In this document: positions 49,931 to 53,989 of the stretch, piece after piece
Layout: the number at the start of each line of letters is the position of its first letter
Position numbering within the stretch: the stretch's first letter is position 1
Source of the DNA: Hydractinia symbiolongicarpus
Lineage: Eukaryota; Cnidaria; Hydrozoa; Anthoathecata; Hydractiniidae
Assembly (NCBI RefSeq): GCF_029227915.1
Contig: NC_079884.1
Location: 8,494,001-8,558,000, forward strand
Direction: 5' to 3'
DNA length: 64,000 nt
The notes under the pieces: generated by a model
Told to the model about the DNA's origin: nothing
Databases searched by the model: none
Seen by the model: the letters and a program-made list of their open reading frames with translations, nothing else
Program-made: the position numbers and the translations under genes

Positions 49931-50012
49931 AATAAATATGAAAACTCAGTATTTTAACCATACATCATATGAAAAAAAAGGTTATTGAAAAACCGACAGA
50001 GACCCATCCACC

Positions 50013-50087
50013 CAACCTCGAACCCAGGGCCTGTAGCGTTTTTTGATATGAGGATGAAACGCGTACGAGGCCCTGGTACAACAGACT
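50013..50087 (+). repeat. Left terminal inverted repeat, 75 bp
   Basis: Inverse of 53,904-53,980 except for two missing G in the GATATGAGG(GG)ATGAAAC part. It ends ...GGTACAACAGACT, after which the two sides diverge. Confidence 0.9.
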
Positions 50088-50420
50088 GAAATTCGCCCAA
50101 AATTAAGCATGCAGAGAAACGTAATGTATGCGTGACGTTTTCGATCGAAGATGGTGTTCTAGTGGCGGGAGGGTACTTTAGCCAGCGCTACCTATAGCTA
50201 CACTGTAAAATTACAGAGTAAATACAACCCTTAATGGCTTTCTAGTCATTTTGTGGTGTATGATACATATAGTATTGTATAGTGGAAACAATCCACTAAC
50301 TATAGGTTTTTGTGATTTTCTGGGATAGCCACTTTAAATGTTTATTATTATTCTTATTTTAAATATTATAGAATAGAATTTCTAAATTTTACATCTACGT
50401 CAAAAATAACAGATGATGCG

Positions 50421-52502
50421 ATGGAACCCTTCGCAATTTTGGAGAAAATTCAAAGATCTCTGGAGTGTCGAAATTTTCCTGACCTTAACTTTAAACCCAA
50501 ACAAGTCAAGTGCTTGGAGTCCATAGTAAGAGGACAGGATGTCATTGGGGTGTTTCCAACAGGATATGGGAAATCTTTAATTTTTCAACTGTTACCAGAT
50601 GTCATGAGAAACAAAGACGAAAAATCTTCAATTGTCATTGTAATCACTTGTTTAAACGCAATTATGGAAGATCAAGTGAATTTTCTGAAAAAAGTAGGAA
50701 TGACTTGCTACATCCTACGTGACTTAAATTTTGAGGAGAATGCTGTACAGACGTTGTTTGAGGATATCTGTCTGAGTGATAAAACAGAAGATGTCTTACC
50801 ATCATTTGTATTGGATGGTCATTGTGACTTCCTATTTTGCCATCCAGAGGCTATATTGAGTGAGAGAGGAAGAACTTTGATGAAAACGAAAATTTATCAA
50901 AAAAATGTCAAAGCTTGTGTCATGAGGCTCACTGCTTGGACACCTGGTAAGTACTACTTTATTTATATAGGTATATATATAGCTACAACTTTAAAAAAGT
51001 TAAATATTATATATATATGTATATATATATATATATATATATATATATATATATATATATATATATATATATATATATATATATATATATATATATATAT
51101 ATATATATATATATATATATATATATATATATATATATATATATATATATATATATATATATATATATATATATATATATATATACAAGAATAATTTCTC
51201 TAATAAGGAAATATGCAATAATGTAATGTTAATTGCAAAATGCTAATAAAATAACAAAGACAAGAATATCTGTACAACAACTGAATAACAAAAATGTATA
51301 TATATAATATAAAACAGATATAAAATTATATATAACTAACAAAATTATTATATATAACTAACAAAATGTTAATCCTAAAATATATATATATTTCTTTATC
51401 TTTAAGGGGAAAAGAATTTCGCAAAGAATTTGAAAACTTGGGAGCAATGCGAGCTTTTTTTAGAGAGGTACCTTTTATCGCACTTACAGCTACCGCAACA
51501 GAAAAAACACTGGCTAAAATAAAACATATACTTGGAATGAAAACCCCAACAATAATATCTGTTAATCCAAACAGAAAAAATGTATACATGTGCAAAGAAA
51601 AGAGAAAAGTTGGTGAAGAAGGTATTGAAAATATCATCTTGCCACTTGCAAAGGAGCTAAAATCACTAAAGAAAAGTTTTCCTCAAACTATTATATATTG
51701 TGGATTGAGGTTTTGTGGGTATATATACAAGTTAATAAAAAATGTATTAAAGGAACACATGTATGTTGAAAACATAACAAACCCTAGCAATTGTTTAATT
51801 GTGCAATTTCACGCACCACAAACAAAGTCAATGAAAAACGAAATTCTCCTTGAAGTTGCAAAAGAAGTTTCAAACATTCGCGTTATAATAGCAACTTCTG
51901 CGCTTGGTATGGGTGTTCATGCACCCTATATCGAACAAATTTTCCATATAAGTCCACCAAGTACCATCGAAGACTATATGCAGCAATTTGGACGGGCTGG
52001 TCGAAGAGGGCAAGAAGCATTGGCAAGATTGTACTATACCGGGCATGATATCAGCAGTAGGCGTTTAAAACAAAATAAAGTTGATGAACATATGGTGAAT
52101 TTTTGTACTACGACACAATGCCTTCGTAAAGTATTGATGATTCACTTTGGATATCATTATCAACCCCAGGATCAATGCTGTAGCAATTGTGATTCTTCAC
52201 TCTTGAAAGAACCTAAAAAAGAGGAACGTATTGAATATAGAGAAGTATCAGATGAGAGTTTAAAGAAACTATCAGATGAACTTGATAATATACTGGCAGA
52301 TCACGACCAAGCCACACATGATGCAGCCATGGAGTTTTATAACATTGTGGATACAGGAAACTTGGCTGAAAAATTTTCAGAAATTATTATTAACATTGAG
52401 TATGTCAACGATGTGGAAAGCTTGTTAGAATATCAGTTGTGGGATGAATTTGTTAGTAGCAGAGTTTTTAAAGTTATTGAGAAGTATACCACACTGAAGT
52501 AA
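50421..52502 (+). pseudogene. RecQ-type SF2 DNA helicase, two exons, frameshifted at the DEAH box
   Basis: Exon 1 50,421-50,946 and exon 2 51,407-52,502 (CACCTG|GTAAGT, TCTTTAAG|GGG). Exon 1 holds the RecQ Q-motif ([18 protein letters not shown]), Walker A (PTGYGKS) and motif Ia ([12 protein letters not shown]). Exon 2 holds motif III (ALTATATEKT), motif V (IIATSALGMGVHAP), motif VI (QQFGRAGRRGQ) and a zinc-binding part (CLRKV... QCCSNCD). The C-terminus has no HRDC domain I can see. Just before the donor the DEAHC sequence is present but in another frame, and exon phases disagree by one. A loss of about 4 nt at about 50,920 explains both. RecQ helicases unwind DNA 3' to 5'. Product function is doubtful for this copy, though the rest of the frame is clean. 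The intron carries a (TA)n tract. The gene lies wholly inside the inverted-repeat element. Confidence 0.8.
51003..51185. repeat. (TA)n microsatellite in the helicase intron
   Basis: About 180 bp of nearly pure TA. Long YIYI reading frames here are artefacts. Confidence 0.95.
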
Positions 52503-52884
52503 TTCCATAATACACAATGTGAGGTAATGTTACTACATACATTAATCAATTTTAGTTTTCTTATATATTCTACTCTTAGCTTATTATGGAATTATTTTTT
52601 GTGTGTAAACTAACCTGTGTGTGAGATATATATACATTTTTTACATTCCAGAAACTTGCTTTTTATGCTTTGTAAGCCATTGATGGAAATGATTAGTGTC
52701 AAGGTATAACTGAGGGCTTCTTTTTATATTTCTAAATGATGGATGAAAGCGTCCAGGTGTATATTCAAATGGAATTTGAAGAATATATATAAAATATAAA
52801 AAAGTATACATGTATATGCATAGTATATATAAAAAAGATATATGTAATTTTTAAAACATAGGTAAGAAAGAATGTATATTTTAC

Positions 52885-53226
52885 CTCTGAGTTTCTTTGT
52901 GGTACATTTTTGTTCTGGTGACGATATTACCCTTTTCACACTGCAATTTTTCCAAAAGCTTATCTGTGCATTCCGACACAAAATCTTAAATTGTACAAAG
53001 TTTTCAATTTTTCTTTCACATTTACGACAGATTATATCATTTATGTTATCAGTTTGCACAATTGTGATACCCACAGTGCCTTGTATTTTCTCTTGAAGTT
53101 GTTTTGATGTTCCAATATTTCCAAAAATTTGACTAAATCGTTTTAAGTCAGTCTCAGCACACAGTCTACACACTTTATCACATCCACTATAAACTTTATG
53201 TGGTGTGATATTTTCTTTCCCTTTGC
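52885..53226 (-). CDS. ZAD-like zinc-binding domain exon (partial gene)
   Basis: An internal-looking exon bounded by a TTGTTTTTAG acceptor (53,227-53,228) and an AGAG|GTAAAA donor (52,885). It encodes VCRLCAETD, about 45 residues, then IICRKCERK and a helical tail. This is the paired C-x2-C arrangement of the zinc-finger-associated (ZAD) domain, known for dimerisation of DNA-binding proteins. Flanking exons were not convincingly found: an upstream candidate near 53,590 does not match the phase, and a downstream candidate near 52,640-52,760 gives no good frame. It lies inside the inverted-repeat element, convergent with the helicase gene, so it may be the element's own DNA-binding protein. That role is inference. 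Confidence 0.55.
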
Positions 53227-53903
53227 CTAAAAACAAAGATTTATATTAGTTGTTATTTTTTGTATATATATATTTCCTTTTATTTATACAGCTAGCTATA
53301 CTTTATTTCCTAAAATATTTTTTAATGCTCTAGCTAGTATTCTTATCCCAAAAAATTGTCAAATAATATCCCTTGAATTGTGACATAAAAAAGATTACTT
53401 GTCATTGTTGTGCATCTTCAAGCTAGCTAACAGTATCTAGCTAGTTAGCCAGCATACATACTAAAAAAGTTGCATCTATACCAAGTTTCTGTTTACTTTT
53501 TAGCATGTGAAAACAAAAATTAAATTGCAGTTTTTTTAAAAATATAAGTATTGTGTCCCAACAAAAGGTGAGAAGTACCTGCTACTTTCGTTAGCAGGAC
53601 AGATGTTCATCGCACCATTCCATTTGACTTGTCAGCTGCCTTTTTCCCATCAGTGAAACAACAAAAATAATGTTTAAAAATTTTGAACAGCACCGATAAA
53701 TTTGTAACGATGCAAGAAAAGTCAAAAATAACGTGAATTAATAAATATTTTCTTCATAAACAAGTTACCAAAAAATCTGCGTAATGCTCATCGCCATATT
53801 TGTTGTTACTATAAAATGCTGTGCTTGCAAAAAATACTTCTGCATTTATTATCTTTTTAGCATAATTTAAAAAAGCCGTATACGCATTCTCATTGGTTGA
53901 GTA

Positions 53904-53980
53904 AGTCTGTTGTACCAGGGCCTCGTACGCGTTTCATCCCCTCATATCAAAAAACGCTACAGGCCCTGGGTTCGAGGTTG
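53904..53980 (-). repeat. Right terminal inverted repeat, 77 bp
   Basis: Ends GCCCTGGGTTCGAGGTTG, followed at once by CCATCCACC. Near-identical inverse of 50,013-50,087. Confidence 0.9.
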
Positions 53981-53989
53981 CCATCCACC

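Follow-up and report, generated by a model that had tools for sequence, protein, structure and literature searches.

A RecQ helicase gene beside a predicted ZAD-DUF6589 transposase in a probable AcademH-type transposon family of Hydractinia symbiolongicarpus

Why does a gene for a RecQ-like helicase lie between two nearly identical inverted repeats in a hydrozoan genome? This arrangement was seen in a stretch of 64,000 nucleotides of Hydractinia symbiolongicarpus (NC_079884.1, positions 8,494,001 to 8,558,000; hereafter, the window), where the repeats and the DNA between them make up an element of 3,968 bp (50013-53980). From its comparison with fuller relatives, we take this window copy to be a recent, internally deleted, non-autonomous transposon copy. 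It very probably belongs to the AcademH type of DNA transposons, with a mechanism of movement as proposed below.

The two terminal inverted repeats (TIRs) of the element, 75 bp on the left (50013-50087, + strand) and 77 bp on the right (53904-53980, - strand), differ only by one 2-bp indel. The same 9-bp sequence, CCATCCACC, stands directly outside both of them (50004-50012 and 53981-53989). A preliminary description of the locus had reported both features. It had also placed a RecQ-like gene and a ZAD-like zinc-binding exon between the repeats, and Pfam agreed, with DEAD, Helicase_C and RecQ_Zn_bind on the + strand and zf-AD on the - strand. With up to 3 mismatches allowed, the outermost 26 bp of the TIR were found at only these two places in the window and in none of 100 shuffles.

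Both TIRs contain the same internal palindrome, with a stem that starts at TIR position 12. Two independent small palindromic miniature inverted-repeat transposable elements (MITEs) might therefore flank a host RecQ gene by chance, and a related fold-back relic does lie at ~44418-44513. We give this explanation next to no credence: it is refuted by the single 9-bp duplication around the entire 3,968-bp unit, and each of 13 other two-ended units has a duplication of its own, one of them imperfect. The relic itself (44418-44513) has two TIR-related ends (46 bp at 85% and 22 bp at 95%), and no clear target duplication was seen around it. It is apparently a fold-back MITE of the same family as the window element or of a sister family.

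The window copy has many relatives in the genome. Comparison of the 77-nucleotide end with the 481-Mb assembly gave at least 40 scored matches, of 424 candidates. The loci that we examined cover 35 of these 40, with 5 in loci left out. At least 14 two-ended family copies, the window copy included, are present in the genome; the search for further end pairs added at least 13, of which the fuller ones carry RecQ. Not counted among the 14 were four matches in two C6 loci with ends facing outward, one in a degenerate C10 copy, one in a C13 copy of a sister subfamily, and one extra end in a C9 tandem. The target duplication was a perfect 9 bp in 12 of the 14 copies, a perfect 10 bp in C4:23277867, and matched at 7 of 9 positions in C3:18842002. 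Every one of the 13 perfect duplications had a different sequence. The sister-subfamily C13 copy, outside the 14, also has a perfect 9-bp duplication. The earlier proposal of a DNA transposon with TIRs and 9-bp duplications is supported, and its ends are dispersed in the genome. The copy interiors were 97.4-99.7% identical to that of the C2 copy over the aligned parts, and the left and right ends of the same copy, cut at 75 bp, differed in 0-4 columns; the movement of this family is therefore recent, as the preliminary description had supposed.

Two unusual arrangements were seen among these loci. At C9:31568863-31577908 (L040), a complete copy follows a partial one that has the same left end, with CGTCTCATC at all three outer junctions; this is probably a segmental tandem duplication. 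The two C6 loci (L046 and L047) have sister-subfamily ends facing outward, ~3.3 kb apart, and resemble inverted copies of one arrangement.

For empty sites, the window and the examined loci were compared with the joined flanks of 15 elements, namely the 14 copies and one of the sister subfamily. The flanks of C2:28577992 crossed the junction in window positions 32504-32692 (88%) and in a locus on C13 (82%), and TGCTTCACT occurs once there. The flanks of C4:558878 crossed the junction in window positions 13923-14147 (79%, with small gaps and 43 bp on the left side). All of these loci are paralogous empty targets of the two copies, and the window stretches among them are repeats. For the window copy, the joined flanks revealed no empty site in the assembly.

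The gene content of the family is best seen in a fuller copy, L036 (C2:14844221-14850451, 6,231 bp). It carries RecQ on one strand and, convergent to it on the other, a transposase gene with a ZAD exon, a middle exon and an open exon of 608 amino acids that matches Pfam DUF6589 (E 3e-40). The middle exon is frameshifted relative to the C6, C3 and C9 copies, and we claim no activity for L036. When the main transposase exon of two fuller copies was scanned against Pfam at E <= 1, only DUF6589 scored, with no MULE domain and no match to the Pfam families of hAT or RAG1/Transib transposases.

DUF6589 is predicted to have an RNase-H-like fold with a large helical insertion, like the Hermes, RAG1 and Transib transposases, which were the best structural neighbours of the model. 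A Foldseek search with the model returned nothing at E <= 0.001. The VIA list did not contain other transposase superfamilies, and their absence there is no evidence against them. A candidate catalytic triad, D47, D235 and E493, was placed by topology, not by superposition. It was invariant wherever an alignment row had a letter (32, 37 and 44 of 47 rows), and other acidic residues were equally conserved.

We take the ZAD exon to be the N-terminal domain of the transposase itself. The preliminary description had seen in it a DNA-binding partner of RecQ; this is right in part, as the exon is a transposase domain that was orphaned by deletion in the window copy (52886-53227, - strand). Relatives of ZAD were found through DUF6589; a search with the ZAD-exon protein among 15 candidates of ~334-1062 amino acids scored none. 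DUF6589 matches within open frames of 1,063 amino acids, with no RecQ within 4 kb, were seen at C2:27297087, C2:35094948, C2:35326706 and C9:26499572. They are a separate DUF6589 subgroup.

Is RecQ a regular companion of this transposase? The genome had at least 101 matches to DUF6589, 98 to ZAD and 113 to RecQ, tallies that are lower bounds, with 102 of 112, 127 of 127 and 112 of 241 candidates scored, respectively. We chose the clustering limits of 4 kb, 8 kb and 1,250 bp ourselves. RecQ was found on the opposite strand within 4 kb on the 3' side in 61 of 83 DUF6589 clusters, and on the same strand in none. ZAD was found on the same strand on the 5' side in 50 clusters and on the opposite strand in none; 45 clusters had both RecQ and ZAD. 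For DUF6589 hits of at least 1,250 bp (n = 29), all had ZAD and 27 had RecQ. When the cluster positions were shifted at random (200 trials), a control that covers the RecQ neighbour only, 0.08 RecQ neighbours were seen on average and 2 at most. The better RecQ hits of other families were ~38-49% identical to RecQ of the window family. Because RecQ occurs in L036, a fuller copy, and stays linked to the transposase in divergent families, it looks like a resident gene of the transposon and not a captured one. Two counts weigh against this: RecQ was missing within 4 kb of 22 of the 83 DUF6589 clusters, and DUF6589 within 8 kb of 39 of the 102 RecQ clusters. Several of these 22 clusters were short fragments or subgroups matching only part of the model.

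The preliminary description had also considered capture of a host helicase, as in Pack-MULEs. The ends of an unrelated transposon would then have picked up a host RecQ gene and the ZAD exon, and the window copy alone would suit this, having no complete transposase and an intron in RecQ. Yet in fuller copies these same ends enclose a gene for a DDE-like transposase, convergent to RecQ, which largely refutes a capture, and the RecQ/DUF6589/ZAD layout recurs in many divergent families, those with RecQ at only ~38-49% identity. We therefore regard capture as highly improbable.

With RecQ read as a resident gene, what is left of this make-up in the window copy? RecQ is encoded on the + strand by exon 1 (50421-50946; helicase core, Walker A) and the open exon 2 (51407-52502; Helicase_C, RecQ_Zn_bind). 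The intron between them (50947-51406) holds a TA microsatellite; its splice sites are inferred, the donor by comparison with the annotated protein P0001 and the C2 copy. Aligned to L036, the window copy is without ~2.4 kb (L036 ~1404-3816), which is most of the transposase gene. The ZAD exon remains, together with a 3' remnant (52641-52772, - strand) for about the last 42 residues and the stop, next to the deletion junction at 52773-52774. The junction region matched 15 genomic places, and the window copy alone spans the junction; within the reach of this search, the deletion is private to it.

The RecQ frame of the window copy is broken by a 4-bp deletion at ~50923, in the DEAH box. Among 13 copies compared (window included), this deletion was in the window copy only; two others had small indels just upstream of the site, and one had a base change just downstream. 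Some copies are intact. With its transposase mostly lost and its RecQ frame broken, the window copy could therefore now move only in trans. One deletion (2110/4637) is common to a C13 and a C4 copy, and another (2196/5274) to a C7 and a C6 copy. The copies sharing a deletion sit at different sites with different target duplications, so the deleted copies moved in trans. Insertions of further genes were seen in three longer copies: a DDE_Tnp_4 gene together with a PHD-like frame, a MADF gene together with a frame that resembles a transposase by eye, and a reverse transcriptase gene.

The nearest protein to RecQ exon 2, with 99% identity over 87% of the query, was P0001, an 'ATP-dependent DNA helicase RecQ-like' of the Hydractinia symbiolongicarpus proteome. 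P0001 corresponds to the copy C6:23044402-23047558, with 100% identity over residues 1-177 and 99% over 174-522. By this match, the annotated gene is itself a deletion derivative of the transposon, with a RecQ frame that extends into ZAD-exon sequence read antisense. In a PDB sequence search, the window-family RecQ had its best solved relatives in bacterial RecQ, BLM and WRN. Its dN/dS (ratio of nonsynonymous to synonymous substitution rates) against a degenerate sister copy was 0.55 over 284 codons (6 further codons were stops in the sister), which is weak evidence.

To which known transposons does this family belong? The preliminary description had seen RecQ as a sign of an undescribed class. 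A new class was rejected, as RecQ has already been described in Academ (PMC3627910, with the phrase 'RecQ Helicase in Academ', and PMC6416283) and in KolobokH (PMC9587614). In most fungal Academ copies there are domains like DEAD/DEAH and recQ, for which reason these copies are often annotated as host genes (PMC6416283). The AcademH lineage of Academ (Kojima 2020, cited in PMC10045372, PMC10799480 and PMC8290104) is reported from animals and fungi according to the title in reference lists, and AcademH or Academ is mentioned in fungi in PMC10799480 and PMC8290104. Target duplications are 9 or 10 bp in AcademH and 3 or 4 bp in AcademX, tied to helicase versus nuclease (PMC10045372). The window family has a helicase encoded by the element (RecQ by Pfam and the PDB sequence search, including fuller copies) and duplications of these lengths (perfect 9 or 10 bp in 13 of 14 copies and 9 bp in a divergent family). 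On these two likenesses to published descriptions, we file the family provisionally under AcademH. In comparison with AcademH, the ZAD-DUF6589 fusion, the convergent RecQ and the palindromic TIRs are possible differences, described here from sequence.

DUF6589 transposons might instead be a superfamily separate from Academ that gained RecQ independently, as in KolobokH. In our analysis, no named Academ transposase was linked to DUF6589 by sequence, an N-terminal ZAD is in no Academ passage that we met, and RecQ is known from more than one superfamily (PMC9587614). No XPG-bearing relatives were found in the genome, where a search with XPG_I, for an AcademX-like partner, gave 4 hits, none near DUF6589. 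However, a helicase together with 9-10-bp duplications is the AcademH combination (PMC10045372), and duplications of both lengths occur in the window family; a separate superfamily is thus unlikely.

KolobokH, a DDD/E transposon, shares with the window family a RecQ helicase; its reports come from fungi only, its RecQ lies downstream of the transposase domain, and Kolobok duplications are TTAA, of 4 bp (PMC9587614). The window family differs in its varied 9-10-bp duplications, for which KolobokH was rejected, and in having RecQ on the strand opposite to the transposase. The strand alone does not separate it from Kolobok, as a red-alga Kolobok has RecQ on the complementary strand (PMC9587614). 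The predicted RNase-H-like fold with its large helical insertion recalls hAT (Hermes) and RAG1/Transib. Target duplications are 8 bp in hAT and 5 bp in Transib. hAT was rejected for the 9-10-bp duplications and for the lack of a hAT Pfam match in the transposase exon. Mutator-like elements and Pack-MULEs have long TIRs and 9-11-bp duplications, and resemble the window family in both. They were rejected: the transposase exon matches DUF6589, the only domain scored in two copies, and not the MULE domain, and RecQ appears resident, not captured.

The name DUF6589 was found in no paper of the literature searched. The literature on ZAD and transposases, on RecQ in transposons, and on Academ in Hydra or Hydractinia was searched and gave no paper on this element, by titles and abstract openings, and the passages of PMC12730594 and PMC10941475 held nothing on its question. 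Helicase-carrying Academ and Kolobok and the duplications of AcademH have thus been described before; in the window family, the make-up of such a transposon is unusually clear. The ZAD-DUF6589 fusion and palindromic ends at a conserved position in two families were not met in the literature passages.

How might an AcademH-type element of this kind move? The DNA itself shows the ends and their duplications, the empty sites, which genes are present and in what order, and the deletion. A complete element would consist of ~75-bp TIRs and two convergent genes, for the transposase and the RecQ helicase. The ends are probably bound by ZAD, the zinc domain at the N-terminus of the transposase, and DUF6589, of RNase-H-like fold, would act as a DDE-type nuclease. 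The transposase would excise the element and join it to a target with strands offset by 9 bp, rarely by 10, and the target duplications would arise when this stagger is repaired. RecQ probably unwinds the ends or a repair intermediate. It is possible, though we do not favour it, that RecQ is instead a passenger unneeded for transposition, protecting or regulating the element. Non-autonomous copies with truncated RecQ have moved, although the helicase could act in trans, and the fixed convergent orientation beside the transposase (61/83 clusters, 27/29 long hits) argues against a passenger.

If RecQ does take part in transposition, the palindromic ends may offer a reason. The DNA of the window TIRs folds at -16.5 kcal/mol on the left (z -5.4) and -16.3 on the right (z -4.5), each with none of 200 shuffles as good; 7 of 2,000 random 77-mers of the window folded at least as well (RNA parameters). 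A divergent family, L051 (C11:9031300-9039300; RecQ 49% identical, TIRs of 82/81 bp, 9-bp duplication GATGTTGAA), has a palindrome that begins at the same TIR position (12) and is spelled differently, with complementarity kept. The outermost TIR bases of the two families are alike (CAACCTCG / CAAACTCG). For the L051 TIRs, the fold beats that of shuffles only weakly (z -1.8 and -0.9; 5/200 and 34/200 shuffles as good), and the palindrome argument therefore rests on position and complementarity. We suggest, as a less likely possibility, that a DDE transposon may depend on its own RecQ because its TIRs are palindromic: the transposase would recognise the ZAD-bound end, and RecQ would open the extruded hairpin of this end. 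This dependence, if true, would be a helicase-assisted variant of the Hermes/RAG mechanism.

Other features of the window were a TGF-beta family gene (PF00019; 58904-59761, + strand) ~5 kb from the transposon, and a reverse transcriptase fragment (26210-27459, - strand) with RVT_1 at 26680-27459; the frame after this fragment is Penelope-like by eye, with no Pfam match. A tRNA-like stretch (16250-16416, - strand; an ARAGORN hit of no clear identity) is possibly a short interspersed nuclear element. Its part at 16250-16393 shares ~90% identity with the right flank of a different transposon copy and is therefore a repeat.

Our results suggest that DUF6589, a Pfam family of unassigned function, is a DDE transposase, and that in hydrozoans it has ZAD fused to its N-terminus and usually keeps RecQ convergent beside it. 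Gene catalogues can list transposon copies as host helicases, as exemplified by P0001, and helicase counts may be inflated. As copies that are recent and well delimited exist both with and without each gene, the question of why some cut-and-paste transposons carry a helicase becomes practical to study.
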